Assembly (NCBI GenBank): GCA_021847425.1
Contig: JAJZRF010000014.1
Coordinates: forward strand, 1-52,862
Source of the DNA: Deltaproteobacteria bacterium
GTDB taxonomy: Bacteria; Desulfobacterota; Desulfobulbia; Desulfobulbales; Desulfurivibrionaceae
Length of the DNA: 52,862 bases
Direction: 5' to 3'
Below, piece by piece: positions 2,598-29,948 of this stretch. A program made the position numbers and the translations under genes. Numbering within the stretch: position 1 is the stretch's first letter; the number at the start of each line of letters is the position of its first letter. A model generated the notes under the pieces. That model had not been told where the DNA came from, searched no databases, and was given only the letters and a program-made list of their open reading frames with translations.

Positions 2598-3254
2598 ATG
2601 AACGGCAGGATCTTTGCCATCGGCGATATCCATGGCTGCGCGGCGAAACTCAAACAGCTGCTTGACCGGCTCCCCTTCGACACCGGGCAAGACACCCTGG
2701 TGTTTCTAGGCGATTATCTGGATCGCGGCCCGGATAGCAAGGGGGTGCTGGACCAGCTCTGCCAGCTGCAGGCCGATGGGGTGCGCGTTGTCCCGCTCCT
2801 GGGAAACCATGAGTATTTGCTGCTGGAATACCACCGGAGCGTTGATCAGGCGCTGCTCCCCTACCTGCGGCGGCTTGGCCTGGAAAATACCTTGGAGAGC
2901 TACGGCGGCGCCAGCCTCAGCGCGCTGGCCTCCCTCGCTTTCATGCCCCGGGAACACCGGGAGTTTCTCGCCTCGCTGCTGCCCCATTGGGAAACCGGGG
3001 AATATATTTTCGTCCACGCGGGCTTGCGCCATGACCAGCCCCTGGCTGATCAGGATATCTCCGAGCTCTGCGAGGTCAGGGAGCCCTTTCTCTCCCAGGA
3101 CCGTGATTACGGCAGGCGGGTCATCTTCGGCCACACCCCTTTTGCCACCCCGCTTCTAACCCCTTTCCGCACCGGCATCGACACCGGCGCGGTCTACGGC
3201 AACCTGCTCACCGCCGTGGAACTGCCGGCGCTGCGCTTCCATCACGCCGCCTGA
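2598..3254 (+). CDS. Metallophosphoesterase (PPP-type serine/threonine phosphatase or ApaH-like)
   Basis: A 218-residue calcineurin-like phosphoesterase with every signature block of the PPP family: GDIHGC (residues 8-13), GDYLDRG, LLGNHE, FVHAGLR and IFGHTPF. These blocks carry the His, Asp and Asn ligands of the two metal ions and the catalytic His of GNHE. The length fits bacterial PrpA/B-like protein phosphatases and the small diadenosine-tetraphosphatase-like enzymes rather than full-length ApaH (about 280 aa). It is soluble. The substrate (phosphoprotein or dinucleoside polyphosphate) cannot be settled from sequence. It converges with the dikinase-like operon on the other strand, with only 7 bp between the two stop codons. 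Confidence 0.9.
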   Translation: MNGRIFAIGDIHGCAAKLKQLLDRLPFDTGQDTLVFLGDYLDRGPDSKGVLDQLCQLQADGVRVVPLLGNHEYLLLEYHRSVDQALLPYLRRLGLENTLESYGGASLSALASLAFMPREHREFLASLLPHWETGEYIFVHAGLRHDQPLADQDISELCEVREPFLSQDRDYGRRVIFGHTPFATPLLTPFRTGIDTGAVYGNLLTAVELPALRFHHAA

Positions 3255-3261
3255 CCGCGGC

Positions 3262-5835
3262 TCAAGGAGCAAGGCGGTAATCCCCGGCCAGAAAGCGGCG
3301 GGCCAGGGTGTTAACCATTTCGTCGGAATCAAGGCGGGCGTCGAGCTGCCGGGTGTACCCGATCAACCGGCCGATCTGTTCGAGGATTCCTTCGATTTCC
3401 TGCCTGCTTTGTCCGGAAATGCGGCCGACCAGAAGGTCGCCCTTGGCCTTGAGGGCAAAACCGTGTTCCGCCAGCACCTGGGCCATGAGGGCAATGCGGC
3501 GGGAGCGGTTGGTGATGGCGGCAGCCCCGCCCACAAAGCGGAAATAGATATGGTTGTTGCGCGGCGTCTCGCTGCAATAGCAATCGAGGATATTAAAGTG
3601 GTACCCGAAACGCAGGCTCATGTTCACATATACCGAACTCGCCAAGGCCACATTCTCCAAGACAGCCGCACCCTCTCCGGCAAGATCCGCCGCCCTGGTC
3701 ATGCCGGAGAGCAGATCGACGCCGCGGAGAGCCGTTGCTTCATTCTGCCAAACGCCGGGGGCAAGCATCCCGGCAAGCACGGCCCGCAACGGCACGGACG
3801 TCACCTCTGCAAACCCTGTCACCTTGCCGGCACCGTCTCCGCGCAGACCGCCGCCCAGGTCAATCACCTGCATCTGGACCGGAATCGGTAAAGTGAGCCG
3901 CCGCAAGGCGCCGGGATGCCAGAAAAGCCCGCCCAGCCCTCTCCTCTTGCGGCCGGCATTGGCAAGCAGGGCCTGGACCGATTTCTCGTGCATGAAGCGC
4001 ACCAGATCATGCACGGTTTTACATTTTTCCGGGGCGAATTCCTGCTCAAGGGGATTCACCAGGTTAAGCGGCGCAATATAGCGCATGATGTATTTCTGGC
4101 GCCGGAACTCATAGAGTTCCCGGAGTTTGGCCCCGGTCCGCCGCGCCTCCCGGAGCAGACTCTGGACAATCCCTTCATAGACGACAACTTCACTTCCCTC
4201 CCCGGCCTGCAGGGTGATTACCTGGCCGTGCTGCAAGACCTCGGTGGCGGAGCCGGTATTGACCACGGTGGGGATGTTGAACTCCCGGCAGATCGAGGCC
4301 ATATGACTGGTGGGGACGCCGATATCGGTAATAATGGCATTGAGGATGGGGATGGCCTGCACAAAATGCGGGGAGTCGTGCCTGGCCACCAGCACGCTGC
4401 CCTTGGGGATATGCTCCAGCTCGTCGATATGGTGCAGGATGAAAACCTTGCCCGCGGTGGTGCCTCGCTGCACCACAACCCCCTGATTCCGGAGCAGCAC
4501 CGGATAGCTGTCCGGCACGGCCTCGATATTTTTGGCCGTGGCCTCGGCTGCAGACTCGTCCATCCGCAGGCTTCGGGCCTGAAGAAAGTAGCAGCGGCCG
4601 GTGTTGTCCACGGCCCATTCGATATCCTGGGGTATCTTGTAGTATTTTTCAATGGCCAGTGCCTGTCCGGCCAACGCCAGAATCTCCGTTTCGCCGAGGC
4701 AGGCCCGCCCCATAAGTTCGACAGGGGTTTCTTTCGTCTCAACGCCGTCCCCCCCGGAGTTGATCACCATCTGCGCCTTGGCGCCGATGCGGCGCTCTGC
4801 AAGGCGGAGTTCTTCCTCCTTGGCTACCGTATAGAGATCGGCATCGGTCAGGCCGTCAACCACGCCCGGACCCAGCCCCCAGGCAGCGCTGATCGCCATT
4901 CTGCCCCGGTCCTTGCCTGCCGCGGCCGTATAGATGACGCCGCTGGCCCTTGCGTCGATCATGGCCACGCAGCCAACCGCCATCTTCAATTTCCCCGGAT
5001 CATAGCCCAGTTGCCGCTGGTAGCTCATGGCATTGGCCTGAAAAAGGCTGGCCACCACCTGCTTATAGGCTCCCTGCACCGCCTCGATGGTGCAGGGCAC
5101 ATTGAGTACCGTCTCGAACTGGCCGGCAAAGGAAAAATCGCCGTCTTCCTCCTCGGCACTGCTGCGAACCGCCAGTTTCCCGTCTCTCCCGAGCCGGAGC
5201 CGCATGGTTTCCAGGGCGGAGGCGAGCGAGGCGGTGAAATCCTCCGGGAAGGCGCCGGCGAGAATGGTCCCGCGCAGTTCGGCCAGAACACCATCATCCG
5301 CCGAGCCGAGCCCCTCCAGCCTTTCTTCCAAGCCGTTGTGGCAGAAAAAATCGCTGAAAGCGGCGGTGGTGATGGCAAAAGCCTCAGGCACCCTGAGCTG
5401 CAGGGTGTTGGCCAGCTCCGCCAGATGATAGTTCTTGCCGCCGACCTCCTCGGCCATATCCCAGGTGATCTCCGGATAAAAGACCACCAGACGGCTGGAA
5501 ATGGGCTCGATGCCGGTCAGCATCCGCTGGACCAGGCCATCGATGCGGGCCAACACCTCGGCAAGCCGGGGATATTGGTTATCGGTCAGCAGGGTGAAAT
5601 GGCGGAGTGAATCGGAGATTGCCGCGAACAGTGCGGCATAGGCGCTTCGGGTATAATTGACGTCAAAGAGATAATCGCCGCCGAGCTTTTCCCCCATCTC
5701 CGTCATGGCTTCAAGGGTGCGGTTGTTGCCGTCCAGCACCGCCTGAAAATCGAGAAACCGCGCCGCCAGGTCAGACGCCGCGGCGCTATCGTGGCCGAGA
5801 ACCTCCTTGATTCTGCGGAAAAAAGATTTTTGCAT
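3262..5835 (-). CDS. Dikinase-like protein A (ATP-grasp, phospho-His, novel C-terminal domain)
   Basis: 857 residues. A helical region (about 20-110) precedes a PPDK/PEP-synthase type ATP-grasp: VGGKNYHLAEL (131-141), LAVRSSAEEEDGDFSFAGQF (221-240) and PQDIEWAVD near 402-410. The swivelling phospho-His domain has IGVPTSHMASICRE, with candidate phosphorylated H511. Residues about 560-857 replace the usual PEP/pyruvate TIM barrel with a domain that has HDLVRFMHEK, VIDLGGG, FGYHFNILD, NNHIYFRF and IGYTRQLD, shared by the three paralogs here. From family knowledge the first two domains should use ATP to phosphorylate the histidine. The final acceptor is unknown and there is no reason to call it PEP synthase. 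It is the last gene of the ten-gene operon, 35 bp after the receiver. Confidence 0.85.
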   Translation of the reverse strand: MQKSFFRRIKEVLGHDSAAASDLAARFLDFQAVLDGNNRTLEAMTEMGEKLGGDYLFDVNYTRSAYAALFAAISDSLRHFTLLTDNQYPRLAEVLARIDGLVQRMLTGIEPISSRLVVFYPEITWDMAEEVGGKNYHLAELANTLQLRVPEAFAITTAAFSDFFCHNGLEERLEGLGSADDGVLAELRGTILAGAFPEDFTASLASALETMRLRLGRDGKLAVRSSAEEEDGDFSFAGQFETVLNVPCTIEAVQGAYKQVVASLFQANAMSYQRQLGYDPGKLKMAVGCVAMIDARASGVIYTAAAGKDRGRMAISAAWGLGPGVVDGLTDADLYTVAKEEELRLAERRIGAKAQMVINSGGDGVETKETPVELMGRACLGETEILALAGQALAIEKYYKIPQDIEWAVDNTGRCYFLQARSLRMDESAAEATAKNIEAVPDSYPVLLRNQGVVVQRGTTAGKVFILHHIDELEHIPKGSVLVARHDSPHFVQAIPILNAIITDIGVPTSHMASICREFNIPTVVNTGSATEVLQHGQVITLQAGEGSEVVVYEGIVQSLLREARRTGAKLRELYEFRRQKYIMRYIAPLNLVNPLEQEFAPEKCKTVHDLVRFMHEKSVQALLANAGRKRRGLGGLFWHPGALRRLTLPIPVQMQVIDLGGGLRGDGAGKVTGFAEVTSVPLRAVLAGMLAPGVWQNEATALRGVDLLSGMTRAADLAGEGAAVLENVALASSVYVNMSLRFGYHFNILDCYCSETPRNNHIYFRFVGGAAAITNRSRRIALMAQVLAEHGFALKAKGDLLVGRISGQSRQEIEGILEQIGRLIGYTRQLDARLDSDEMVNTLARRFLAGDYRLAP

Positions 5836-5870
5836 TATGAGCGATTCCGCAGGGGATTACCGGGCCGGGA

Positions 5871-6239
5871 TCATTCCTCCCCCAAGGCTCTCTTGACGGA
5901 GGCCTTCAGCTCCTTGATCTTGACCGGCTTGGGGAAGAAGTCGTGCACATCATCCCGCAACGCCTCAATGGCCACATCCAGGTTGGCAAAGGCGGTGATC
6001 ATGATCACCTTGACCCCGGGGTAAAGCTTCTTGACGGTGCGCAGCACCTCAAGGCCATCCATCCCCTTCATCTTCATGTCGGTTACCACCACGTCGAACC
6101 GTTTCTCCTGCAGCCGCTCCAGGGCAGCCTCCCCGTTCAGAAAGGTTTCCACTTCGTAGCCGTCCTGTTCGAAGGAGAGTTTTGCCATATCTCCCACGAT
6201 TTTCTCATCATCAATGACCATAATGCTATGCTTCGCCAT
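5871..6239 (-). CDS. Single-domain response regulator (CheY-like), operon copy 1
   Basis: A 122-residue stand-alone receiver: acidic pocket IDDE (residues 9-12), phospho-acceptor D54 in VVTDMKMKGMDG, switch Thr in MITAFAN and the conserved Lys in PKPVK. No output domain follows, so it must act through protein-protein contact or as a phosphotransfer intermediate. Its start overlaps the end of the histidine kinase gene by 14 bp, which makes that kinase the likely partner. It lies just before dikinase-like protein A. It resembles the second receiver of the operon at 17053, which also sits beside a kinase of the same build. Confidence 0.92.
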   Translation of the reverse strand: MAKHSIMVIDDEKIVGDMAKLSFEQDGYEVETFLNGEAALERLQEKRFDVVVTDMKMKGMDGLEVLRTVKKLYPGVKVIMITAFANLDVAIEALRDDVHDFFPKPVKIKELKASVKRALGEE

Positions 6240-7647
6240 CCGTACACCTCTTTAACTTTTTGCAACTGGGCAAGGTTATGATAAAAGTAGTGCCAATTCC
6301 TATCTGACTTTTCACCCGGATGTTCCCCTGGTGGTTTTTGATGATCCCGTAGCTGACCCACAGGCCGAGGCCGGTACCGCTGTCCCCCTTGGTGGTAAAA
6401 AACGGATCAAAGATGTGATCGAGAAATTCCGGGGCAATGCCCTTGCCCTTGTCGCCGATCTCGATCTCGATCTCGTCTTCGTCCGGCAAATAGCGGGTGC
6501 CGATCTGCAGCTCACCGCCCTTGTCCATGGCCTGGATGGCATTGGTCACCATGTTGACCAGCACCTGCTGAATCTGGTGTTCGTCGATGTAGATATCCGG
6601 CAGATCCCCGGCCAGGGCAAGCTTGATCTTGATATTGGAGACATCGAGCATGTTCTGCACCAGGGCCAGGATCTTCTGGATGACCTGATTGGTGGTCGCC
6701 CGGGCCAGATGCTGCTCCTTGGGTTTCGCGTAGTCAAGCAGATTGTGGATGGTAACCCGCAGCCGCTCGGTCTCCTCATCGACCCGCTCCATGAAGCCGA
6801 TCCGATCCTCCGTGCTGAGACTATCGTAGACCTCCGCGTAGGTCTGGGCGAGCATGGAGATATTATTGAGCGGATTATTGAGTTCGTGGGCCACCCCCGC
6901 CACCAGCACGCCGATGGAGGCGAGCCGTTTGGACTGGACAATCTCCTTTTCCCTTTTTTGCAGTTCCTCGGCCATGGAGTTGATGGCGCTGATCACCGCC
7001 CCGATCTCATCACTGGAGGGTTTATCCTCGATCTTCCGGTAGTTGCCCGTGGAAATGGCACGGGTGAGGTTGACCACCTTGCGCAATGACTGGCTGATGT
7101 TCCGGACGATGAGATTGCTGAAGAGAAAGGCGAAAAGGACCACGGCCCAGAAGGAATAGAGCAGGATATTCTTGGAGCGGACAATGATCGCCCCGATGCG
7201 GTCACTTTCAAGGGCGGTGATATTCTCGGAAAATGTCTTCAGGTTCTGGCCCGCCTCCCGCAGCTTCTGCTGGACCATGGCGTCCCGGTATTGAGCCTTG
7301 CTGATCAAATCAACCAGCTGTGCATACGCATGGAATTGTTCCTGAAGCACCGTGTATTTCTCGGCGCCAACGGCCCGGATGATGTCAGGCCTGACCTGCA
7401 GCATGGTCTCGCGGGTCTGGTTGATTCTGGCCTTGATATTGCTCAAGGCATTGTCATCGCCATAGAGGAAATAATTTTTTTCAGCCAGCCGCATCTCGAG
7501 AAAATTGGCGTTCAACCCTTCGGCGATCACGGTGAAGCGGAACTTGGTTAAAATTTCATTGAGGTTTTGCAGGGCGAAGCTTCCGATCAAGACGATGAGC
7601 AGGATATTAACCGCGTTGGAAAGATATATCTTATGTTCTATCTTCAT
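6226..7647 (-). CDS. Membrane sensor histidine kinase with HBM-like sensor, operon copy 1
   Basis: 473 residues. TM1 lies around 10-28. A helical periplasmic region of about 130 residues carries the RLAEKNYFLYGDD motif, as in helical bimodular (HBM) or four-helix sensor domains. TM2 is around 160-181, then HAMP (182-235), HisKA with GVAHELNNPLNN (H254), and HATPase_c with the N box (NMVTNAIQAM), GDKGKGI, a DPFFTTK F box and GTGLGL. It is expected to autophosphorylate H254 and pass phosphate to the receiver encoded just downstream with a 14 bp overlap. HBM domains are known to bind small organic acids, but the ligand here is not visible. Its start overlaps the DUF202 gene upstream by 4 bp. It is homologous in layout to the kinase at 15545. 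Confidence 0.92.
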   Translation of the reverse strand: MKIEHKIYLSNAVNILLIVLIGSFALQNLNEILTKFRFTVIAEGLNANFLEMRLAEKNYFLYGDDNALSNIKARINQTRETMLQVRPDIIRAVGAEKYTVLQEQFHAYAQLVDLISKAQYRDAMVQQKLREAGQNLKTFSENITALESDRIGAIIVRSKNILLYSFWAVVLFAFLFSNLIVRNISQSLRKVVNLTRAISTGNYRKIEDKPSSDEIGAVISAINSMAEELQKREKEIVQSKRLASIGVLVAGVAHELNNPLNNISMLAQTYAEVYDSLSTEDRIGFMERVDEETERLRVTIHNLLDYAKPKEQHLARATTNQVIQKILALVQNMLDVSNIKIKLALAGDLPDIYIDEHQIQQVLVNMVTNAIQAMDKGGELQIGTRYLPDEDEIEIEIGDKGKGIAPEFLDHIFDPFFTTKGDSGTGLGLWVSYGIIKNHQGNIRVKSQIGIGTTFIITLPSCKKLKRCTDGEA

Positions 7648-8867
7648 TTCATCTTTCCTCCCAGCACGGCACTTCTGGTCCTGGGCAGCTCGGCCTGTTC
7701 CTTGCGTACCGGCAGGTACCAGAGCGCCCCGTCGCTGATCATCAACAGGCCGATGACGATCAGCATCACATCAAAAATGGTCTTGAACCCCACGCCAAAA
7801 TAGCCGATAAAACCGATCCCTATGCTCAAAAAAGAAACCCCGGTGCGAATGAAGGCCAGGCCGGTGCGGGCCCGGGCATAGATGTTCCGGTAACTGGCGG
7901 CAATGGTGCGTTGGGCCGCGAGCACATTCCGTTCCCGCGCCAAGTGGGTCCGTTCACGGCTGGCAGGAGCAGGATACAAAATGGTGCCATAGTTGGCAAG
8001 AAGATCACCCATCCTCGCCAGCATGGTTTCCTTGGTTCTTTTTTCCGGCTCGGGGCAGTCCAGATTCTGGTAGTTTTCAAGAAAGCTCAAAGTAGCGCCG
8101 CTCACCTCGATCAGGGTCTGGTCCTGCGGCGGGATCAACCGCGAACGCCGCACCCGAAGATAGGTGGGCAAAGCGCCGAAAAAAAGGAGCAGCCCCATGG
8201 CCAGGATACCATAAGCCATGGAGGGGTAGGCGGTAAAATGTTGACGGCTCAGAAGGGTCCGGGAAATAGCGCCGAGGGCAAGACCTATCCGGACAAAGGC
8301 CAGGGCGGTACGGGCCTGGGCCAGATCCGTGCGGTAACAGGCCAGCCGGGTCCGCCACTGGGCCATGGTATTGCGCCAGAAGGCCAGACCGGTCCGTTCG
8401 GTGCCGATGAGCAAGCCCGGTTTGTCATGGAGAAAGTCCTGGATAAACCAGGCGATGTCATCGGGCAGAGCCACCCGGAATTCATAGGGGGCCGAGCCGA
8501 AAACTCCCTCCACCTCCGCGCGCATGGCAGGATCGGATGGGTCGCAGGCAGCGATAACGATGGTGCCGTCGGCGTCCTTGATCACCGGAAACCAACCCGC
8601 CGGCGCGGGCTGGCACCCCTGAAGGCAGGTGAGCAACTCGGGCGGAACGGGCAGACGCTCGTCGTATTCAATGGCCGCGCACCGGTAATGGGCGCTCAAG
8701 GCGGCAAGAAGAGCCGCACGCGGCACGCCGTACTCAACATGAAGAATCCGGGCCAGCGGCACCCCTCGCAACACCGCAGCCTGCGCCGCTTCCGCAAGCA
8801 ACCCGGGCCGGGACATGGCGAGCCCGGCGAAGGGCTGTATCAGTGCATCGTTCTCAACCTTCGTCAT
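7644..8867 (-). CDS. MshEN-DUF202 membrane protein with two arginine-heptad units
   Basis: 407 residues. Residues about 20-150 resemble the MshEN/T2SSE N-terminal domain (PLARILHVEYGVP, then LLAALSAHY, IEYD and VIAACDPSDPAM), the fold that binds c-di-GMP or ATP in type II secretion ATPases. No ATPase follows. Instead there are two DUF202-like units at 157-245 and 305-395. Each opens with six heptads of pattern x-R-[T/N]-x-x-A-x (for example ERTHLAR, ARTGLAF, IRTGVSF) and continues into two hydrophobic segments; the second ends with the DGALWYLPVR motif. I chose ATG at 8867 over the longer frame from 9017, because the MshEN-like region begins there and translation then couples to the upstream gene (14 bp overlap). 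Role unknown; probably an inner-membrane protein. Confidence 0.8.
   Translation of the reverse strand: MTKVENDALIQPFAGLAMSRPGLLAEAAQAAVLRGVPLARILHVEYGVPRAALLAALSAHYRCAAIEYDERLPVPPELLTCLQGCQPAPAGWFPVIKDADGTIVIAACDPSDPAMRAEVEGVFGSAPYEFRVALPDDIAWFIQDFLHDKPGLLIGTERTGLAFWRNTMAQWRTRLACYRTDLAQARTALAFVRIGLALGAISRTLLSRQHFTAYPSMAYGILAMGLLLFFGALPTYLRVRRSRLIPPQDQTLIEVSGATLSFLENYQNLDCPEPEKRTKETMLARMGDLLANYGTILYPAPASRERTHLARERNVLAAQRTIAASYRNIYARARTGLAFIRTGVSFLSIGIGFIGYFGVGFKTIFDVMLIVIGLLMISDGALWYLPVRKEQAELPRTRSAVLGGKMK
7830..7955 (-). repeat. Arginine-heptad array a2 (six heptads)
   Basis: Residues 305-346 of the 407-aa protein: ERTHLAR, ERNVLAA, QRTIAAS, YRNIYAR, ARTGLAF, IRTGVSF. Arg is at heptad position 2 and Thr or Asn at position 3 in all six, and Ala at position 6 in five. 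The repeat is at protein level; the DNA copies have diverged. Confidence 0.8.
8274..8399 (-). repeat. Arginine-heptad array a1 (six heptads)
   Basis: Residues 157-198 of the 407-aa protein: ERTGLAF, WRNTMAQ, WRTRLAC, YRTDLAQ, ARTALAF, VRIGLAL. An Arg recurs at every seventh residue and Ala at position 6, giving a positively charged stripe if helical. Confidence 0.8.
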
Positions 8868-10386
8868 TGCTGAACACCACGGTTTTCCAAAATCGGGCTG
8901 ACACGCCGTAGTCAGGAATGGGGATTTCCATATCGCCGTAACAGTAAGGAAGTTGACGGCGGGTCCGCTCGGCCGGAATGCTCCAGTAAAAGCCGTCTGC
9001 CACCAGAACAAGACCAATCGCCATCATGGAAAAGTTGAACACGGTCCAACCAATGCGGCCGGTATCGCTGAAAAAAAGCAAAAAGCCCACGCCAATCGAA
9101 AAGAGACTGAGTCCCGTGCGGATAAAGGCAAAGCCGGTACGGGCCCTGGCCATGACCGTCCGCAACCGGGCCATGACGTTGCGGCGTTCCGCCAATACGG
9201 TCCGTTCCAGGGCAACGCCGGTGGTGGCCCAGATCCCTGGGGCATGGGAGCTTTTCACCGGCAGGATCATGGGATTTTTGTCCACCCCTGGCAGGCCATG
9301 ACGGTGGAGGGGGAAGAAATAATGCCAGACCGTGGACATACGGGCCTTTTGCCGCACCGAGACCAAGCCATCCACCCCAGCCTGGCGACCGCGGGCATAC
9401 CAAAAAAATCCTTCCAGCCCCATGACGACCCCCAGACCCATGAGCCCAAGATCAAAATACACCCAGCGACTGGCATGAAACTGGCGCAGCAAGCCAAGGC
9501 CGATACTGATAAAAGCGAAGCCCGTGCGGGTAAAGGCCAGCCCGGTTCTGACCTTGGCCATCCTGGTTCGGAAACAGGCAAGCACGGTCCGCTCCTCGGC
9601 CAGATCGGTGCGGTCGCTGGCCAGATAGCGCCGCCGCATCACCGGAGACAAACTGGTCCAACCGGCCCGCAAGGCGGCGGCTCCGGGCACCACTTCGCTG
9701 CGCCGGAACTCCGGGGCAATGTACTCGTTGCCTACCTCAAGCACACTGGTTCCGCCCGTGGCCCCGGTTTCAAGGCAGGGAGGCAAGGCGGCAAAAAGCG
9801 TCCGGGCGGGCAGATACCATTTGAAGCCGTCATAGATAATGATGATGCCGCTGATCAGGAGAGGCGCCTCCAAAAACAGGTAATAACCGGCGCCAACCAG
9901 CCGAAGAAAAAGCAGGGCAATGGTAATAAAGGAAAGACCGGTACGAATAAAGGCCAGCCCGGTGCGGCTCTTGGCCAGGAGAGTCCGGTAATGGGCGAAC
10001 AGGGAACGGCGGCCTGCCAGATAGGTGCGGACCTTGGCCAATGGTGTCCGGCCTGCAGTGGGCGGAAAGCCTGGGTTAATATCCTGATTGTGTTCAAAAA
10101 TGCGGAGGAGGTCTTCGGCCAGGGTTACCTGGAACTCGACCTCTTGCACGCCCAGAGTCTTGCGGACCTTGGCGGCCAAAGCGGGACCGGGCTCAATGGC
10201 GATCACCGTTGCCCGGCCATCACCAACCAGCCGCGGAAACCAGCCTTCCGCCCGGAGCTGTGCCATGTCCAGTTTCCAAAGGAGAAGCTGGGGGCCGGTC
10301 ACCGACTCCTGATACTCCACCCATGGACAGCCATACCTCTTGCCAAGCGCCTCCAGCGCTTGCAATTTTTCCAAACCCGCTTTCAT
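8854..10386 (-). CDS. MshEN-DUF202 membrane protein with three arginine-heptad units
   Basis: 510 residues. Residues 8-105 resemble the second half of an MshEN domain (LGKRYGCPWVEY, then WFPRLVGDGRATVIAIEP and VTLAEDLLRIFEHN). Three DUF202-like units follow at about 112-200, 251-340 and 387-480. Each has a block of heptads x-R-T-x-x-A-x, then two hydrophobic segments, and two of the three end in a DG-x-x-W motif (DGFKWYLPAR, DGFYWSIPAE). DUF202 is the family that includes the Vtc1 membrane subunit of yeast polyphosphate polymerase, but most bacterial members are small, single-unit and of unknown function, so a fused three-unit protein is unusual. The gene starts 9 bp after dikinase-like B, with an AAGGAT ribosome-binding site, and its end overlaps the next DUF202 gene by 14 bp. 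Confidence 0.82.
   Translation of the reverse strand: MKAGLEKLQALEALGKRYGCPWVEYQESVTGPQLLLWKLDMAQLRAEGWFPRLVGDGRATVIAIEPGPALAAKVRKTLGVQEVEFQVTLAEDLLRIFEHNQDINPGFPPTAGRTPLAKVRTYLAGRRSLFAHYRTLLAKSRTGLAFIRTGLSFITIALLFLRLVGAGYYLFLEAPLLISGIIIIYDGFKWYLPARTLFAALPPCLETGATGGTSVLEVGNEYIAPEFRRSEVVPGAAALRAGWTSLSPVMRRRYLASDRTDLAEERTVLACFRTRMAKVRTGLAFTRTGFAFISIGLGLLRQFHASRWVYFDLGLMGLGVVMGLEGFFWYARGRQAGVDGLVSVRQKARMSTVWHYFFPLHRHGLPGVDKNPMILPVKSSHAPGIWATTGVALERTVLAERRNVMARLRTVMARARTGFAFIRTGLSLFSIGVGFLLFFSDTGRIGWTVFNFSMMAIGLVLVADGFYWSIPAERTRRQLPYCYGDMEIPIPDYGVSARFWKTVVFSNDEG
9103..9228 (-). repeat. Arginine-heptad array b3 (five heptads plus one degenerate)
   Basis: Residues 387-428 of the 510-aa protein: degenerate ATTGVAL, then ERTVLAE, RRNVMAR, LRTVMAR, ARTGFAF, IRTGLSL. 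The regular Arg at position 2 continues through the last five units. Confidence 0.75.
9511..9636 (-). repeat. Arginine-heptad array b2 (six heptads)
   Basis: Residues 251-292 of the 510-aa protein: RRRYLAS, DRTDLAE, ERTVLAC, FRTRMAK, VRTGLAF, TRTGFAF. All six keep Arg at position 2 and Ala at position 6. Confidence 0.8.
9928..10053 (-). repeat. Arginine-heptad array b1 (six heptads)
   Basis: Residues 112-153 of the 510-aa protein: GRTPLAK, VRTYLAG, RRSLFAH, YRTLLAK, SRTGLAF, IRTGLSF. All six keep Arg at position 2; five have Thr at position 3, and five have Ala at position 6. Confidence 0.8.
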
Positions 10387-10395
10387 ATCCTTATC

Positions 10396-12999: not shown

Positions 13000-15552
13000 C
13001 TACCCCTCGCCTCCAGCCTGCTCCTGCCTGATGCTGGAGAGAAAACGCTGGAAAAACTCCTCGATGGCCGCCTCGTCGCGCATCCGGACATCGAGCTGGC
13101 GGGTAAAGGAGATCAGCTCGCCCAGCCGGATCAGCACCCGTTCCATCCTCGGAATATCCAGATTCCTGGCCTTGGCGATCACCAGATCGCCCGTGCGCTC
13201 CACCTTGAAATCCAGGCCGGAAAGGATGGCGCTGATCAACCGGGCCCGCCACTCGCGCTTGGCCTTTTCCGCCAGCCCTCCGGCAAAACGGAAGTAGATG
13301 TAGTTGTTGTCCGGGTCCGGCGACATGTAGGCGTCCACCACGTTGAAGTGGTAGCCCAGGCGCAGACAGAGATTGCAGTAGTGTTCGGCGATGATTCCCA
13401 GGTTGTCGCCCGGATAGGACGGCCCGGTGAGCAGGGCCAGCGGCTTGCTGATCCCGGAGATGATCTCCTTGAACCCCAGCACCGCCGATTCCTTGACGCC
13501 CTGGTCATCCTTGAGAAAGCCGGTGAGGATGGCGATAAGGGGCTTGCTGTTCAGCATTTCCATGCCGACCTCTCCTGCCCCTGACGCTTCGGAGGTCAGT
13601 CCCGAGCCAAGGTCGATAACCCGCAATTTGAGCGGAATCGGCAGACGCACCCGCCGGCTCGCCCCCTCTTGGGCACCCCTCTCGGCATGGAAATGGATCA
13701 GCGCGTCAATGGCCTTTTCGTGGGCAAAGCGAAGGATATCGTGGAAGGTGCTGCAGTTTTCCGCCTTGAAATCGGCGGCGGTTGGATCGGTCAAGGTGAT
13801 GGGCGCCACCCAGCGCAGGATCCGGCGCAGAATCCGCAGTTCCTGGGAGGCGCGGTAGTCATCCTGTTCCGCGACATGCAGACGGACCAGACCCTCGATG
13901 ATCCCCTGATAGACCTGTTTGTTCTCCACGTCCACCGTGATCTCGGCCCCTTCGGCAAGGACCCGCACCCCGTCGCCGGTGCCGAACAGGGCGGGGGTCC
14001 GGTATTCCCGGGCAATGGTGGCCAGATGACCGGTGGGCCCGCCGATCTCGGTAATGATGGCGGCGGCCCGCCAGACAATGGGGCTCAGTTGCGGGCTGGG
14101 GAAGCGGGCCACTGCGATGGCGCCCACCGGGAAGTGGTCCGGATCGGTGTCCTGATCCACATGCACCACCCTGCCTGCCGCAATGCCGAGCTGGGCAACC
14201 TGGCCCCTTCCGGACATGAGCGGGGTGGCAACGGCCAGTTCCGCAGCCAGCTCGCCGGGAAGCGGCAACGGTTTGGCCGGCAGGGAGAGAGCACGGTTCT
14301 GCAGAATCACCGGTTCGTCCCCCAAGGCCCACTCGATATCCTGGGGTTCGCCAAAGGTCTTTTCCAGCAGCAGGGCCTGCTCGGCAAGCTTTGCCAGCTC
14401 CCTGGGCGTTAAGGTTGCCGAACCGCGCCTCAGGCCGTTGGCCAGAATAGCGAACGCGTCCCTGTCGCCGGAAAAACCATCCGGCATGACGATCTCGCTG
14501 GTCAGCGGGGTAAAAGGCCAGACCCGGGTCATGACGAAGCGGTCCGCCTGTCTCCGGCCGGCAACCAGGTCATGGGCCGCGCCGCGCAGGGCGGTGATGA
14601 GCAACTGGTTTTTCTCCGGCGATTCCGGGTCACGGCTGTAGGTCACCCCTGCGGTCCGCGACCGGATCATCGGCTGCACCCCGGCGCCCATGGGGACATC
14701 CCGGCTGCCGGCCGTGGAGCCCAGATACTCCAGCGCAGCCACCGAGAACCGGGAAGCGATCACCCGCCGGTAGGCGGCAAGCACCGAGGATACCTCCGGC
14801 CGCACCTCAAGCACGGAATGGAACTGCCCGGCAAAGCTCCGGGTTCGAGCATCCTCCCCCACCCCGCTTGAACGGACCGCCAGGGGAACCGGGCCGCCGG
14901 CCCGGTTGAGCAGCTGCCTCAGCTCGTCTTGCACCGCCGCCACCAGCGGTTCCGGAAAACGCGCCTGCTCAAGGAGGCGGCTGATGGCGGCCGAACGGTC
15001 CCGGCTGGAACCAGGATTTGCGCAGATGGCATCAATGGCAGCGAAAAGACCGTTTGCCTCCATGAACTCGCGGTAGGCGGCAACAGTAATGGCAAAACCG
15101 TCCGGCGTCCGCAGATGCAGCCGGTTGCGGATCTCGCTCAAGGTGGCGTTCTTGCCGCCCACCAGTTCCTCGAAATCGCTGTCGATCAGTCCATACGCCA
15201 GGGTAAGATTCCGGTCGTACGGTCCGGCATATTCCAGAGCCAGCCCGGAAAGTTTTCCGGCAATCTCCTCGTAGCGGTCATACAGGGAGAGATAGCGGTT
15301 GCCGGTCAGGCTGCCAAGGCAGGAGACCACCTCCCGCACCAGCTCGTTCAACCCGGCCACGGCTTCGCTTAAGAATTTCCGGTCGAAGACATACTCCCCG
15401 GCCAGGGAACTCTCCATGCGGCCGATCTTTTCAAGCACCGCGTTGTTCAGGGAAAGCAGCCGGCGGAACAACAGGAAGGAGGCGGCAAAGGAAGCCGGTT
15501 CCCCCGGTGCCGCCTTGGCGAAGGGATTAACCGGAAAATTCATCTCAGGCAC
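13000..15552 (-). CDS. Dikinase-like protein C (ATP-grasp, phospho-His, novel C-terminal domain)
   Basis: 850 residues. ATP-grasp motifs: VGGKNATLSEI (131-141), LAVRSSGVGEDARTRSFAGQ (224-243) and PQDIEWALGDEPVILQNR (403-420). The phospho-His motif is EIGGPTGHLATIARE (candidate H509). The C-terminal domain, about 555-850, has FHDILRFAHEKAIDAL, VIDLGSG, LGYHFNVVDAY, NNYIYFRFAGG and ISFTRQLD. The motifs between SRDPE and the QDIEW block differ from A and D, suggesting a changed nucleotide or regulatory loop. The reaction is inferred to be ATP-dependent phosphorylation of H509 followed by transfer to an unknown acceptor. The start overlaps the upstream histidine kinase by 8 bp; the stop abuts the next start. 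Confidence 0.85.
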   Translation of the reverse strand: MPEMNFPVNPFAKAAPGEPASFAASFLLFRRLLSLNNAVLEKIGRMESSLAGEYVFDRKFLSEAVAGLNELVREVVSCLGSLTGNRYLSLYDRYEEIAGKLSGLALEYAGPYDRNLTLAYGLIDSDFEELVGGKNATLSEIRNRLHLRTPDGFAITVAAYREFMEANGLFAAIDAICANPGSSRDRSAAISRLLEQARFPEPLVAAVQDELRQLLNRAGGPVPLAVRSSGVGEDARTRSFAGQFHSVLEVRPEVSSVLAAYRRVIASRFSVAALEYLGSTAGSRDVPMGAGVQPMIRSRTAGVTYSRDPESPEKNQLLITALRGAAHDLVAGRRQADRFVMTRVWPFTPLTSEIVMPDGFSGDRDAFAILANGLRRGSATLTPRELAKLAEQALLLEKTFGEPQDIEWALGDEPVILQNRALSLPAKPLPLPGELAAELAVATPLMSGRGQVAQLGIAAGRVVHVDQDTDPDHFPVGAIAVARFPSPQLSPIVWRAAAIITEIGGPTGHLATIAREYRTPALFGTGDGVRVLAEGAEITVDVENKQVYQGIIEGLVRLHVAEQDDYRASQELRILRRILRWVAPITLTDPTAADFKAENCSTFHDILRFAHEKAIDALIHFHAERGAQEGASRRVRLPIPLKLRVIDLGSGLTSEASGAGEVGMEMLNSKPLIAILTGFLKDDQGVKESAVLGFKEIISGISKPLALLTGPSYPGDNLGIIAEHYCNLCLRLGYHFNVVDAYMSPDPDNNYIYFRFAGGLAEKAKREWRARLISAILSGLDFKVERTGDLVIAKARNLDIPRMERVLIRLGELISFTRQLDVRMRDEAAIEEFFQRFLSSIRQEQAGGEG

Positions 15553-17056
15553 CCCGGAACAGGCGGGGGAAGGTTAACCGGAAAGTCGTACCCTTGCCCG
15601 GCTCGCTCTCCACCTTGATGTCGCCGCTGTGGTCCTTGACAATGGCGTAGCTCAAAGAAAGGCCAAGCCCGGTGCCTTCATTCTTGGTGGTAAAGAACGG
15701 GTCGAAGATATGGTTCAACGCCTCGGGAGCAATGCCTGCCCCGGTGTCGCTGACCACGATCAGCGCCTCTTTTTCCCGGGCGCTCACCGCGAGGTCGAGG
15801 CGGCCATCGGGCTGCATGGCCTGGACCGCGTTGAGCATCAGGTTGACCAGCACCTGCTGCAGCTGGTTGGGATTGCCATTGACCAGCACCGCTTTGTCCG
15901 GATGGTCATAGCGGTAGACGATCCCGCCCAGGCGAAACTGATTCTTCACCAGGGTAATGGAACTTTCCATCAGCGCGACAAGATCCACCGGCTCCATGAT
16001 ATTGGACTTGCGGGTCCGGGAAAACTCAAGCAAATGGTGCACCACCTCCCGGGCCCGGTCCGACTGAACCAGAATGTCGCGCACCATGTCCATCCGTTCG
16101 CTGCACGCCAGGTTGGGAAGATCCTCCAGCAGCACCTCGGCGGTGAGCGAGATATTGTTCAGCGGGTTGTTGATCTCATGGGCAATGCCTGCGGTCACCT
16201 TGCCGATGGCCGCAAGCTTTTCCGACTGCACCAGTTGGCTCTGCTTGGCATTCAGGGCCTGGAGCATGAGGTTCAGGGAATTGACCAGCTCCATGCCCTC
16301 CACCGAGCACCGGATCTCATCATTCACCGGGATGGAGCTCATCTCTCCCTGCATGATCCTGGCCGATGCCTCACGGATGACGGCAAGAGGCCGCATGATC
16401 CAGCGCATCATATACAAGACCAGCACGGCGCCAAGCCCCACCGCCAGAGCGAAAATAAGCATTGCTGATTTCTGGTAGCCCGCGACCTCGCGCTCCACCC
16501 GAACCCGTGCCCTGGCGTCCAGGTCGAAAATTTTCCTGGTGATGTCCTGGCCGTGTTTGCGCAGGGCGTTTTCCAGGGATTGCTTGTTCCCGGCAGAGAG
16601 CCCGTCTTGCAGAAGCTGGCGGGAAACAGCTTCGTACCGGCCAAGTTCCGTACCGTCCAGGGACTCCAGCTCGCTCCGGTTTTCCAGGAGAATCGTCTTC
16701 ACCGCGACAATGGCGGCCCGGACCTGATCCACATAATCAAGGGCATTGAGCAGATCCTTCCGGTCGTTGAACAGGAAGTAATTTTTCTCGTAGCGCCTGA
16801 TCTCAAGCACTTTCTGGTTCAGCTCGTAGAACGATTCGATGATCCGGATCTTGTCCTCCATGCGCCACAGTGCGTAGGTGGCGGTGGCCATGGCGATAAT
16901 GCCAAGGCCAGCGACAATGCAGATCGTGAACAGGAGCTTTCCCCGGATGGAACGGATCGCGGGAAAGAGAAACCGGCAAGGCGGCAGGGTTACAGGGCGT
17001 TCCCCCTTACTGGCTGCTGTCTGCGCCGCTTGGGGCCCCGGAAGACCGGCGCTCAT
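15545..17056 (-). CDS. Membrane sensor histidine kinase with HBM-like sensor, operon copy 2
   Basis: 503 residues. A cytoplasmic N-terminal extension of about 35 residues precedes TM1 (41-63). The helical periplasmic domain carries IRRYEKNYFLFNDRKDLLNA, matching the EKNYFL motif of the other operon kinase. TM2 lies at about 197-217, then HAMP, HisKA (GIAHEINNPLNN, H293), and HATPase_c (NLMLNAVQAM, SDTGAGI, DPFFTTK, GTGLGL). It should phosphorylate the receiver encoded immediately upstream, with which it overlaps by 4 bp. Gene order here is receiver then kinase, the reverse of the other pair in the operon. The 3' end overlaps dikinase-like C by 8 bp. Confidence 0.92.
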   Translation of the reverse strand: MSAGLPGPQAAQTAASKGERPVTLPPCRFLFPAIRSIRGKLLFTICIVAGLGIIAMATATYALWRMEDKIRIIESFYELNQKVLEIRRYEKNYFLFNDRKDLLNALDYVDQVRAAIVAVKTILLENRSELESLDGTELGRYEAVSRQLLQDGLSAGNKQSLENALRKHGQDITRKIFDLDARARVRVEREVAGYQKSAMLIFALAVGLGAVLVLYMMRWIMRPLAVIREASARIMQGEMSSIPVNDEIRCSVEGMELVNSLNLMLQALNAKQSQLVQSEKLAAIGKVTAGIAHEINNPLNNISLTAEVLLEDLPNLACSERMDMVRDILVQSDRAREVVHHLLEFSRTRKSNIMEPVDLVALMESSITLVKNQFRLGGIVYRYDHPDKAVLVNGNPNQLQQVLVNLMLNAVQAMQPDGRLDLAVSAREKEALIVVSDTGAGIAPEALNHIFDPFFTTKNEGTGLGLSLSYAIVKDHSGDIKVESEPGKGTTFRLTFPRLFRGA

Positions 17057-17439
17057 TCTTCCGCCCTGTTGGATTCCATGGCTCGATAAATAACCTGTTT
17101 CAATTCGTCCAGGCGAAAGGGCTTGGCAAGGAAGGCGAAAACCCCCTGCCGCTGCGCCAGTTCCGCCGTATCCGGCGAGGCATAGCCGGTGATGATGATC
17201 ACCCTGGTTTCGGGATTCATGACCCGGACCCGTTTCAAAACCTCGATGCCGTCAATTCCCTCCATCTTAAGGTCAGTCACCACGATGTCAAAGGATTTTT
17301 CCGCCATGGCGGCAAGGGCCGAAGCCGAATCGGTAAAGGTCTCGATCTCGAAGCCGATTTTCCCGAACACCTGCTTGAGCCGCTTACCGACAATGGGTTC
17401 GTCATCCACCACCAGCAGCCGCGTGATTGTCTCGCTCAT
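17053..17439 (-). CDS. Single-domain response regulator (CheY-like), operon copy 2
   Basis: A 128-residue receiver with VDDE (11-14), phospho-acceptor D56 in VVTDLKMEGIDG, switch Thr in IITGYAS and the Lys in AKPFRLDEL. No output domain. It is encoded 18 bp after dikinase-like D and overlaps the kinase gene by 4 bp. The region before the ATG has GGAGGTGGAACA, a strong ribosome-binding site. Its output is probably an interaction with an operon partner, since no DNA-binding domain is present. Confidence 0.92.
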   Translation of the reverse strand: MSETITRLLVVDDEPIVGKRLKQVFGKIGFEIETFTDSASALAAMAEKSFDIVVTDLKMEGIDGIEVLKRVRVMNPETRVIIITGYASPDTAELAQRQGVFAFLAKPFRLDELKQVIYRAMESNRAEE

Positions 17440-17457
17440 TGTTCCACCTCCCTGCTA

Positions 17458-20046
17458 TCATTTGTCGGCAACAATGCCGTAATCTCCCATGAGAAAGGCC
17501 TCGGCATATCGAGCCACGGCCTGGTCGTCCGTCATCTGCACATCCAACTGCCTGGTAAAGCCGATCAACCGGCCAAGGATATCAAGGGTGCGCTCCATTT
17601 CCGGCTGCGACAGATTGCTGGTCCGGGCGATGACCAGATCCCCCTTGGTCTGGACGCTGAAATCAAAGGCCTCCAGAATGGTGGCGATGAGGGTCGCCCG
17701 CCGCGAACGCTTGGCAATGTCGGTGGCCCCGCCCAAAAACCGGAAATAGATATGATTGTCGCGCTCCACGTCGTGACAGAAGGCATCGACAATATTGAAA
17801 TGATACCCGAACCGGAAGCACAGGTTCACATACGTTTCGCTGATGATCGCGATATTGTGTCCGGTGTACTGTCCGGAAAGGGTGTCTTGCGGGGTGGTCA
17901 TCATGCTGTGCATCATGTCCTTAAAGCTCACCGGCATGGTCTCCTGGTGCCAGGCCCCGGGAAAAAGCATGCCCTGCAGGATGGCCTTGAACGGGATCGA
18001 ACGGATGGCGGAAAAGGGAATCTGGTCGCGCGGGGCGTCCGGGGCAATGCCGCCGCCGATATCGATGGCAAGTATCCCGGCCTGAATAGGCAGGTCCAGC
18101 CGTCTTGCCAGGCCGCCGGGCAGACAGCGGTCATCCCGGCCCAGCTCCACCAGCTCAAGCACCGCGGTCTCATGGATGAAGCGCAGCACGTCATGGAAGG
18201 TCTTGCACCCTTCGGGCCTGAATTCCTGCATCAGGGGGTCAACCAGATTCAGCCGGGAAACCTCCCGGAGAATACGGCGCAGCATCCTGAACTCCGGGGC
18301 CATGTGCAGGTCCATGCTGGTGGACGCCTGATAGGTGAGGAGCTCCACGACCCTGCCCCGGTAAATCCGCCGGTCCTCGGCATCAACGGTTATTTCCTCG
18401 CCGGGAGCCACCTTGGCAAGGATACCCGGAACCCCGACCAGACAGGGAACCCGCAGCTCGCGGCACAGCGTGGCCATATGGCTTGCCGGGGTTCCCACCT
18501 CGGTGACGATGGCCGCGGCCCGGTGCATGACCTGCACGAATTGGGAGGAATCGCGGTGACTGATAAGTACCGCGCCCTCGGGAAAACTCTTGAGATCAGC
18601 CAGGGTTTCCACCCAGAAAGCCGGCCCGGCGCCGATCCCCTGCTGGGCCACACGGCCCACATCCGCGGCGACAAGCTCATAGCCTTCGAGTTTTTCGGAA
18701 AGTCGTGGCGTTCCCTGGGCGCTCTCCGTGATCAACAAAGGCCTGGATTGCAGGATGTAGAGAACACCCTGTGTATCCACGGTCCATTCGATGTCCTGGG
18801 GGCGTTTGAAGAAGGTCTCCAGATGAATGGCGATTCCGGCAAGCTCCAGCAGAAGCCGCTCGTCAAGACAGGGGGATTTGATCTGCCCGTCAGGCACCGC
18901 CTGCATCGCAAGCCCGCCATCCGTGTTCCCCGTTGGCAGGAGGGCTTCATGTTTTGTGGCGATCACCTGCTCAAGGATCTGCACCACCTCACCCTTGCTG
19001 AACCGGAAAAAATCCGTGGGCACCTGTCCCTCGACCACCGCCTGCCCCTGGCCCAAAGCACCGACAGCCACCATGCTCTGGGAACCGGGCGCCATGGGAT
19101 CAACAGAATAGATGATGCCGCTGGCATGAGCCGGAATCATGCGCTGGCAACAGGCGGCAATGGACATGGGACTGCCTTCGGGGAAGACCTGACGCCGGTA
19201 GCGAATGGCCTTGTCATCAAAAAGACTGGCCGCCACCTTGAGGTAGGCGCGGTACACTGCCTCGGCCCGGGGAAGAACCTGCAGTTCGGAATGAAACTGC
19301 CCGGCAAAAGAGAAATCCATATCCTCTTCCTGGGCACTGCTGCGGATCGCGAGAAAAAAAGGAGGTTCGCTGCCGGCCGCAAGCCGCTCAAGAGACTTGG
19401 CCAGGGTATCAAGAAAGCCGGATGGGGGCTCGGCGTGGAGCACCTTTTCCCGCAGAAGGCGGCGCACCCCCCCAAGATCCTCTTCATCGGCATGATGGCC
19501 GGAAAGCAGCTGTTCAAACCGGTCGAATTCAGGCCGCAGCCCGTTCAGATCGATAAGATCGTGGAACAACCGGGCGGTGATCACAAATCCTTCCGGCACC
19601 CGGACCTTGGGGTTGTGGAGCAGCTCGGAAAGATGCGCGGCCTTGCCGCCCACCAGAGGCCAGTGCCGGGTCTCGACCTCGGAAAGCCAGAGCAGGGGCG
19701 GGCCGTCCCGGTCATCCCGTTTATTGAGAATCGCCCGGACCCTGGTCTCCATGGGGGCAAACACTCCAGGCAGCACCGCACACCTGTTCTGGGTCAGGAT
19801 ATTGATCGCGTCAATGGCGCGACGCATGGCTGTGATCATCTCCTCAACCGTGGATTCCACGTAGCGGAGATCAAACAGATACTCGCCGCTCAGCTTCTCC
19901 CCTATGTCGGCGATGATCTCAAGGGCCTGGTTATTTGCCTTGAGCACCTCACGAAATTGAGAAAATACCAGGGGTAAAGGACGACAGCTTTTGGGAGTGA
20001 ACCAGTGTTGGGCAGAAAATCCTTTCAGGAGATCACGGAGGGCCAT
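17458..20046 (-). CDS. Dikinase-like protein D (first gene of the operon)
   Basis: 862 residues, closest in motif content to protein A. VGGKAAHLSEL lies at about 132-142, LAIRSSAQEEDMDFSFAGQF at 232-251, and RPQDIEWTVDTQG near 415-427. The phospho-His motif is EVGTPASHMATLCRE (candidate H523). The C-terminal domain has FHDVLRFIHETAV, AIDIGGG, FGYHFNIVDAF, DNHIYFRFLGG and IGFTRQLD. No TIM-barrel PEP-binding signature is present. The start is ATG at 20046 with a CAGGAG ribosome-binding site, only about 25 nt after a terminator-like hairpin. No separate promoter is obvious in that space, so expression may depend on read-through from the TauE operon or on attenuation. Confidence 0.85.
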   Translation of the reverse strand: MALRDLLKGFSAQHWFTPKSCRPLPLVFSQFREVLKANNQALEIIADIGEKLSGEYLFDLRYVESTVEEMITAMRRAIDAINILTQNRCAVLPGVFAPMETRVRAILNKRDDRDGPPLLWLSEVETRHWPLVGGKAAHLSELLHNPKVRVPEGFVITARLFHDLIDLNGLRPEFDRFEQLLSGHHADEEDLGGVRRLLREKVLHAEPPSGFLDTLAKSLERLAAGSEPPFFLAIRSSAQEEDMDFSFAGQFHSELQVLPRAEAVYRAYLKVAASLFDDKAIRYRRQVFPEGSPMSIAACCQRMIPAHASGIIYSVDPMAPGSQSMVAVGALGQGQAVVEGQVPTDFFRFSKGEVVQILEQVIATKHEALLPTGNTDGGLAMQAVPDGQIKSPCLDERLLLELAGIAIHLETFFKRPQDIEWTVDTQGVLYILQSRPLLITESAQGTPRLSEKLEGYELVAADVGRVAQQGIGAGPAFWVETLADLKSFPEGAVLISHRDSSQFVQVMHRAAAIVTEVGTPASHMATLCRELRVPCLVGVPGILAKVAPGEEITVDAEDRRIYRGRVVELLTYQASTSMDLHMAPEFRMLRRILREVSRLNLVDPLMQEFRPEGCKTFHDVLRFIHETAVLELVELGRDDRCLPGGLARRLDLPIQAGILAIDIGGGIAPDAPRDQIPFSAIRSIPFKAILQGMLFPGAWHQETMPVSFKDMMHSMMTTPQDTLSGQYTGHNIAIISETYVNLCFRFGYHFNIVDAFCHDVERDNHIYFRFLGGATDIAKRSRRATLIATILEAFDFSVQTKGDLVIARTSNLSQPEMERTLDILGRLIGFTRQLDVQMTDDQAVARYAEAFLMGDYGIVADK

Positions 20047-20934: not shown

Positions 20935-20935
20935 C

Positions 20936-29923: not shown

Positions 29924-29948
29924 CAATAACCTCTTACAGGAAGACGCC

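Follow-up and report, generated by a model that had tools for sequence, protein, structure and literature searches.

Organisation of the locus

The stretch analysed here, referred to as the window, is the 52,862 nucleotides of contig JAJZRF010000014.1 (positions 1 to 52,862, forward strand) from a Deltaproteobacteria bacterium of the Desulfurivibrionaceae (GenBank assembly GCA_021847425.1), whose genome is a 2.7-Mb draft that is 81% complete and contains dsrA. It carries a real, conserved operon of sulfite-reducing bacteria that encodes a sulfur-compound permease, four dikinases, switch proteins and an arginine-rich membrane pair, and that looks like a switchable anion-transport system. A preliminary description had placed a ten-gene operon at positions 3262-20046, and the ten open reading frames (ORFs), A to J, were confirmed there, all on the minus strand and tightly packed. 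Using Pfam, A (3262..5835), F (10396..12999), G (13000..15552) and J (17458..20046) were identified as dikinases with a new C-terminal domain (CTD), C (6226..7647) and H (15545..17056) as membrane histidine kinases, and B (5871..6239; E 9e-30) and I (17053..17439; E 8e-28) as stand-alone receivers, while D (7644..8867) and E (8854..10386) combine MshEN or MshEN-like domains with two and three DUF202 units, respectively. The kinases have a HAMP-HisKA-HATPase architecture, with the HAMP domain of H under the Pfam cut-off, and B and I consist of a receiver domain only, in agreement with the earlier assignment of two membrane kinases and two output-less receivers. Neighbouring genes are separated by 35 bp (A/B), 9 bp (E/F), 0 bp (F/G) and 18 bp (I/J), or overlap by 14 bp (B/C), 4 bp (C/D), 14 bp (D/E), 8 bp (G/H) and 4 bp (H/I). 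The D/E value holds if the ATG at 8867 is taken as the start of D; were translation to begin instead at the TTG at 9017, where the longest ORF opens, the overlap with E would be 164 bp.

The limits given in the preliminary description proved too narrow, as three further minus-strand genes and a sigma-54 promoter probably belong to the unit. K (20140..20952) encodes an Alph_Pro_TM membrane-anchored protein (Pfam E 3e-52), L (20936..21865) a TauE/SafE (TSUP) permease (Pfam E 4e-49), and M (21968..22438) a small Usp-like protein, assigned from a Pfam match below the cut-off and from neighbour maps. J and K are separated by 93 bp, K and L overlap by 17 bp, and L and M lie 102 bp apart. The unit is flanked, 249 bp beyond M, by N (22688..24190, minus strand), an NtrC-type sigma-54 activator with receiver, AAA and Fis helix-turn-helix domains in Pfam; its NCBIfam matches fell below their cut-offs, and its homologues lie beside TSUP-dikinase loci in the neighbour maps. 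A match to the sigma-54 (-24/-12) promoter, TGGCACGGTTAGTGCT, occupies 22485..22500 on the same strand, 46 bp before M, and agrees with the consensus at 11 of 12 positions, making it the sole site in the window to reach at least 11. When 52 stretches preceding L-type TSUP homologues were scored, 28 had a site of at least 10, versus 1.44 expected from shuffles; the shuffles preserve single-base content only, and several of the 52 stretches come from related genomes. Because of the site before M and the spacing and strand of the genes, a thirteen-gene transcript, M-L-K-J-I-H-G-F-E-D-C-B-A, is likely to arise from this promoter with N as its activator.

At the opposite border, a PPP/ApaH-like phosphoesterase gene (2598..3254, plus strand; Metallophos E 3e-18) converges with A, the two ends lying 7 bp apart. 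Its product contains the motifs GDIHG, GDYLDRG, GNHE and GHT, which we take to be a PPP-type signature. A homologue was found in 10/40 loci (L124-L163) and 17/80 loci (L009-L088), own-genome copies being left out; these and all later locus counts are not independent samples, since the loci were retrieved by way of their CTD, contig ends truncate many of them and some share one contig.

Dikinases with a conserved C-terminal domain

As the preliminary description had proposed, all four dikinases possess ATP-grasp and phospho-histidine domains, matching PPDK_N (E 1e-56 to 1e-72) and PEP-utilizers in Pfam, and their mutual identity is about 30-39%. Each is laid out as an N-terminal part of ~115 amino acids (aa) that has no Pfam match, PPDK_N, PEP-utilizers and the CTD of ~270 aa, for which no Pfam match over the cut-off was obtained in any of the four proteins; a weak overlap in G with UDPG_MGDP_dh_C (residues 563-601, E 0.06) was below the cut-off and was ignored. 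A structural model of the CTD (mean predicted local distance difference test score, pLDDT, 81.7) had a best Foldseek match of E 0.046 and no convincing PDB relative, with query-normalised template modelling scores of at most 0.25 among the matches listed. When the CTD sequence profile was compared with the PDB, a single match (E 0.17) was returned and was disregarded.

For the dikinase alignment, 226 CTD hits of more than 80 bits were reduced to 189 of 790-960 aa, with own-genome copies taken out, and to 180 once identical sequences were removed. The phospho-histidine is kept in 180/180 of these proteins. Residues that we take to be catalytic at the ATP site are nearly as constant, namely Lys134 (177 of 180), Arg224 (178), Glu406 (177), Gln419 (177) and Arg421 (179), and two further ones are less so (Q239, 163/180; D404, 170/180). 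Within the CTD, H609, D610, H616, H746, R780 and D832 (numbering of A) are invariant in 180/180 sequences, and because these six residues are constant they suggest a ligand or catalytic site. The CTD is a domain family that has invariant residues and no Pfam entry. In a midpoint-rooted FastTree phylogeny of the 180 sequences, A, F, G and J each belong to a different clade (41, 58, 22 and 39 rows; supports 100, 99, 100 and 90, respectively). As they sit in four supported clades, the tree indicates that they are not recent copies, that their split predates the spread of these lineages, and that the four dikinases probably have separate jobs.

The likeness to phosphoenolpyruvate (PEP) synthase is confined to part of each protein. 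The PEP synthase model TIGR01418 scored 208-285 against a cut-off of 740, its match ending at about residue 570, and the rifampin phosphotransferase model NF041857 scored 147-188 bits against a cut-off of 999. No match to the PEP/pyruvate barrel was found in A, F, G or J using Pfam, and a better PPDK_N match (401 bits) lies elsewhere in the host genome, in an 818-aa frame on contig C34.

The Nitrospirota CTD dikinases L201-L207 are ~200 aa longer than A, F, G and J, the extra part having no Pfam match in L201. Receiver fusions were sought among these proteins of about 1060-1090 aa and none was present in the one scanned (L201); likewise, no dikinase was found among the collected ORFs with a receiver domain.

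The DUF202 membrane pair D and E

The two proteins earlier described as MshEN-DUF202 proteins could both be upheld. D contains an MshEN domain over the Pfam cut-off and two DUF202 stretches; E contains three DUF202 stretches, and its MshEN domain, under the Pfam cut-off, is supported by Foldseek matches of the E model to the N-domains of MshE, XpsE and PilF, which reached a probability of 1.00 but no E-value of 0.001 or lower (range 0.01 to 0.15). The E proteins of near relatives have a short N-terminal part. The MshEN fold is compatible with control of D and E by cyclic di-GMP (c-di-GMP), which we do not claim.

The 2+3 unit count recurs in other genomes. DUF202 matches number exactly two in 35 of the 39 D-like ORFs; 3 more carry a short overlapping piece besides their two, and the last is a stub truncated at the locus end. 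The 44 E-like ORFs include 38 of at least 400 aa, with three hits (35) or three and a short piece (3), and 6 fragments. The window itself is part of these lists, and some contigs appear in them more than once; later loci yielded a few higher counts, which may include short pieces. Every DUF202 unit carries arginines exactly seven residues apart: 6, 6 and 5 in E (residues 113-148, 252-287 and 395-423) and 6 and 6 in D (158-193 and 306-341), or 29 in total. Each of these ladder arginines is kept in at least 21/22 aligned E and 18/19 aligned D sequences. In the model of E (pLDDT 77.8), helices of 52-55 residues span the ladders.

Searching E against PDB sequences up to E 10 returned only four Vtc1 sequences, which were not significant (E 0.03-0.05) and in which positions 24 and 31 align opposite E 409 and 416. 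No VTC entry appeared for the E model among the best 50 of 549 Foldseek rows, and neither D nor E had a VTC polymerase or SPX domain match in Pfam. In the VTC complex, five first transmembrane (TM1) helices are described as lining the channel with K24/R31 and their equivalents (PMC9911596). On account of the 2+3 units, the arginine ladders, the Vtc1 alignment and this five-helix channel, we predict that D and E form a 2+3 DUF202 pseudo-pentamer with arginine rings.

Conservation and modularity

Scanning genome contigs with a CTD pattern identified 209 relatives. The 80 that were kept come mostly from Deltaproteobacteria/Desulfobulbaceae, Nitrospirota and Thermodesulfobacteria-type genomes, with single metagenome-assembled genomes (MAGs) titled Actinomycetes and Deferribacteres; the closest named-genome matches to the CTD of A are Deltaproteobacteria, Desulfobulbaceae and Desulfurivibrio MAGs. 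Up to nine CTD family matches occur in one genome. The neighbour maps revealed a recurring core of TSUP, K, a J-type dikinase and a receiver, often with a kinase and NtrC, to which the G-F dikinases and an E-D-C-B(-A) module are optional additions, and the order TSUP-K-...-E-D-C-B-A is common in Nitrospirota. L-type TSUP genes (more than 50% identity) occur in 39/80 and 24/40 CTD loci, with a same-strand CTD dikinase within 6 kb in 29/39 (L009-L088) and 24/25 (L124-L163) cases, and K adjoins them in 39/39 and 23/25 cases, respectively. Since the host genome has six TauE places, the chance that a TauE gene and a dikinase would be adjacent by accident is low. A stand-alone receiver lies on the same strand within 500 bp of the CTD dikinase in 25/40 loci (L124-L163). 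One collected locus (L071:16962-18014) contains a 350-aa protein with about ten arginine heptads, in which an arginine-rich DUF202 unit is fused to a receiver and which ends 10 bp before a CTD dikinase; this single case ties receiver, DUF202 and dikinase together outside the cluster of the window.

The packed gene order thus recurs in other genomes more than chance would allow, and the full order is retained in near relatives, as expected had the dikinases been conserved together with the other genes. That expectation failed for the E-D-kinase module, which in 3 of 9 genomes has neither a CTD dikinase nor an L-type TSUP gene on the ~19 kb fetched around it. All 9 D-carrying genomes also hold the CTD family and dsrA, and a CTD dikinase or L-type TSUP lies near D in G000, G261, G052, G295 and G101; in G001 the stretch around D ends at the contig end. 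The G-F dikinases occur without the remaining genes in L139 and L151. As D has a dikinase or TSUP nearby in some genomes and lacks one in others, the ten-gene order is best described from these maps as one arrangement of at least three modules.

Two further protein types accompany these loci. Usp-type proteins lie beside the TSUP-dikinase core (e.g. L153:6862-8602), one family being present in 11/40 loci. Large proteins with a sigma-54 activation domain directly precede CTD dikinases at L164:10785-13481, L126:4611-7340 and L169:10635-13187; two of the three have a weak Cache match below the cut-off, and they are possibly membrane-bound sigma-54 activators.

Link to dissimilatory sulfur metabolism

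In a phylum sample of 395 genomes, dsrA was present in 139/146 carriers of the CTD family versus 51/249 non-carriers; five of the seven dsrA-less carriers are 62-80% complete and two are 97% and 100% complete. A second sample (centre G475, 295 genomes) gave 77/85 carriers versus 56/210 non-carriers, and all 40 carrier families fall among the 54 dsrA families. The CTD family is hence both widespread, with 146/395 and 85/295 sampled genomes carrying it, and linked to dsrA. Dissulfurimicrobium hydrothermale, described as one of two strains known to grow solely by sulfur disproportionation, carries both the TSUP-J-I-G-F and the E-D-C-B sets. Its genome paper lists five 'phosphoenolpyruvate synthase' genes, three of which have neighbouring tags and, from the order of the locus tags, are probably J, G and F, such that the family is probably concealed under the PEP synthase name in at least one genome paper. 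In a 2026 survey of disproportionation markers, a term search of the main text found no TauE, dikinase or DUF202 (PMC12998232).

Related clusters in Desulfovibrio

Nitrate resistance was reported for two Desulfovibrio strains when mutated in a 'poorly annotated' cluster, DVU0251-DVU0245 or Dde_0597-0605 (Korte et al. 2014, PMC4001038). The cluster is described as encoding a TauE protein (DVU0251), PtxB (DVU0249), a kinase (DVU0248, pseudogene), a receiver (DVU0247), a dikinase (DVU0246) and a phosphatase (DVU0245), and insertion mutants in 0246, 0247, 0250 and 0251 grew equally with and without 100 mM nitrate, a phenotype common to the mutants of permease, receiver and dikinase (PMC4001038). 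The authors, citing unpublished data that the G20 mutants are mildly sick on thiosulfate, proposed a leaky thiosulfate transporter (PMC4001038), and a later paper repeats 'putative thiosulfate transporters' (PMC9723548). The combination of TauE permease, kinase, receiver and dikinase is also present at our locus, and the CTD family itself is found in similar layouts: L180 has the nitrate-cluster order (TauE, a 212-aa protein, Phosphonate-bd, kinase, receiver, CTD dikinase), and L170, from D. aespoeensis, has kinase, receiver, CTD dikinase and a DSPc phosphatase, the two genomes belonging to family f43, which also holds D. aespoeensis. The host genome has a fifth CTD dikinase (G000:C84:70798-73314, equivalent to L160:8799-11315), whose neighbours, a Phosphonate-bd (PtxB-type) protein, a 691-aa kinase and a 119-aa receiver, resemble the nitrate cluster. 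Searches of the open-access literature on DUF202 with dikinase, dikinase with sulfite exporter, the nitrate-cluster tags and DVU2956-2962 turned up, among the articles covered, none that accounts for the system.

A proposed mechanism and its alternatives

Read as a whole, the locus may be a receiver-controlled phosphoryl-transfer system that operates sulfur-oxyanion transport, a tentative reading to which we give somewhat less than an even chance. The operon, driven by sigma-54, would serve the transport of sulfur oxyanions during dissimilatory sulfur metabolism. A membrane kinase would sense a signal and phosphorylate a stand-alone receiver, which in turn would switch on a PEP synthase-like dikinase. 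The dikinase would transfer a phosphoryl group from ATP via its invariant histidine to an acceptor bound by the CTD, and this transfer would switch on or energise uptake, with the TauE/TSUP permease L, probably the key to function, and its partner K as the route and presumably a sulfur oxyanion as the substrate. The PPP-type phosphatase could reset the system. The core L-K-J-I would be extended here by the dikinase pair G-F and by a pore-like module, E-D plus the kinase, receiver and dikinase encoded by C, B and A, whose five DUF202 units might form a VTC-like arginine-lined anion conduit. The signal-controlled phosphoryl-transfer machine at the membrane suggested in the preliminary description accords with the intact histidine and ATP-site residues, the receivers near dikinases, the L071 fusion and the shared Desulfovibrio phenotype; what did not survive is the notion of ten indivisible genes. 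A stronger version, a novel type of ATP-driven anion transport, is quite unlikely. In it, receiver-controlled dikinases with a new acceptor domain would charge or phosphorylate the anion itself, which would then cross the membrane through the covalent 2+3 DUF202 pseudo-pentamer and its five to six stacked rings of arginine, in the service of sulfate/sulfite reduction or sulfur disproportionation; D and E would then be for bacteria what the VTC channel is for yeast, with another enzyme coupled to them.

Several observations weigh against the proposed mechanism. TauE proteins are known as exporters too. Binding of the acceptor by the CTD is a guess from conservation, as the domain lacks an annotated relative. 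The association with dsrA accounts for phylogeny by family count only, other core genes of sulfate reducers are expected to show the same link, and the 51 and 56 dsrA genomes of the two samples do not have the CTD family. No stand-alone receiver lies near the dikinase in 15/40 loci (L124-L163). D is rare (9 carriers among 390 genomes of the phylum), and ~19 kb around the E-D-kinase module contain no dikinase in G371, G254 and G328 (3/9). The nitrate-cluster layout of the host genome is a separate locus (C84, L160) and not the ten-gene cluster. In Desulfovibrio, the kinase gene DVU0248 carries a pseudogene annotation, and a mutant in it, tested singly, was reported to have little or no nitrate advantage, which weakens the case for a needed kinase; DVU0245 (phosphatase) mutants remained nitrate-sensitive, and the DVU0250 results differ between pooled and single tests (PMC4001038). 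Polar effects are possible, as the tested mutants are transposon insertions, and DVU0246, likened here by its description to A, F, G and J, is shorter than these at the 2235 bp given (PMC4001038).

The dikinases could instead be signal-controlled protein kinases whose targets lie in the membrane (the permease, K, D or E). They would then work as a switch that transports no energy, a reading that we consider somewhat unlikely. Phosphatases of protein-phosphatase type lie beside both layouts, PPP-like here and DSPc in L170, stand-alone receivers are present and four paralogues could mean four targets; the invariant histidine, aspartate and arginine residues of the CTD are, however, more like a small-ligand or catalytic site, and PPP/ApaH relatives, by their family names, cleave nucleotides too. 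It is extremely unlikely that the four are ordinary PEP synthases of gluconeogenesis misread as special: all are far under the model cut-offs and match only to about residue 570, the barrel match is missing and the host has a much better PPDK_N match on C34, even though their ATP-grasp and histidine parts score to PEP synthase models and the name is borne by five Dissulfurimicrobium genes, of which three are probably members.

That three independent modules are neighbours here by happenstance would fit the E-D-C(-B) stretches fetched without a dikinase and the solitary G-F dikinases, and yet the dikinase family is present in every D-carrying genome, near relatives keep the full order and the L071 fusion adjoins a dikinase, which leaves this explanation unlikely. 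It appears very unlikely that the locus encodes a VTC-like phosphate-polymer machine. Here the dikinases would synthesise or charge a polyanion rich in phosphate, the E-D pseudo-pentamer would carry it over the membrane and the phosphoesterase would trim it. This reading draws on the Vtc1 sequences as the only PDB matches of E, on the alignment of E 409 and 416 with positions that line the VTC channel, on a number of DUF202 units, five, that equals the subunit count of the 3:1:1 VTC pentamer (PMC9911596) and on the 29 ladder arginines. The host genome also gave no PP_kinase (PF02503) match, PPK2 not having been searched for. Against it, the polymerase and SPX domains were not found in D or E, the Vtc1 matches were not significant and VTC was absent among the best 50 Foldseek rows, most dikinase carriers are without D, and the PP_kinase gene may sit in a gap because the genome is 81% complete.

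The mechanism of receiver-controlled sulfur-oxyanion transport bears on how sulfur oxyanions enter sulfite-reducing and disproportionating bacteria and on the first steps of disproportionation. A genetic handle on such clusters already exists in Desulfovibrio, and the arginine ladders give a sharp structural prediction.

Other genes in the window

Elsewhere in the window, positions 48875-50713 encode a 612-aa bacterial protein with WD40 and Sel1 repeats. At 29751-33922, a gene of the ADP-forming acyl-CoA ligase type precedes one for an acetyl-CoA hydrolase/transferase that includes a GNAT domain. Further two-component genes encode a receiver-Hpt protein (33971-34774) and a CHASE5-PAS hybrid kinase (39324-41651).

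Comparison with known systems

The dikinases share with PEP synthase and pyruvate phosphate dikinase the ATP-grasp and swivelling phospho-histidine domains with their conserved residues, and differ from them in the missing barrel match and in additional segments of ~115 aa at the N terminus and ~270 aa at the C terminus. Rifampin phosphotransferase and prodigiosin ligases are PPDK-type enzymes with another acceptor part, and their domain order differs from that of the dikinases here; their models match best in the ATP-grasp part, far below the cut-offs. D and E resemble yeast VTC in having DUF202-type membrane units, five in total, and basic residues 7 apart, which in VTC TM1 are K24 and R31 of Vtc1 and K622 and R629 of Vtc4 (PMC9911596). 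They differ in having no polymerase or SPX domain match, in the 2+3 fusion of the units and in their five or six arginines per helix, versus two to four basic residues described for VTC. With the MshEN c-di-GMP receptor, D (by Pfam) and E (by Foldseek) share the fold.

Two Desulfovibrio clusters come closer to the locus. In D. vulgaris, control of the operon DVU2957-DVU2964 (also given as extending to DVU2967) was assigned, with support from gel shifts, to the sigma-54 activator DVU2956 (PMC4641369), and DVU2958 is a TSUP protein in highly conserved clade B (PMC5840216). Here too a sigma-54 activator lies beside a 'transmembrane transport' operon with a TSUP gene, and from gene order DVU2957-2964 resembles the core of our locus. 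The nitrate cluster has one dikinase versus four, another phosphatase type, no DUF202 protein named in its description and a PtxB-type binding protein, a kind not found among the proteins scanned at the locus and its neighbourhood. That no described system has this combination, as first stated, is therefore partly wrong, since a smaller version, itself unexplained, had been described: on gene descriptions and layouts rather than DVU sequences, the nitrate cluster and the locus both bring together a TauE permease, a histidine kinase, a stand-alone receiver, a PPDK-type dikinase and a phosphatase.

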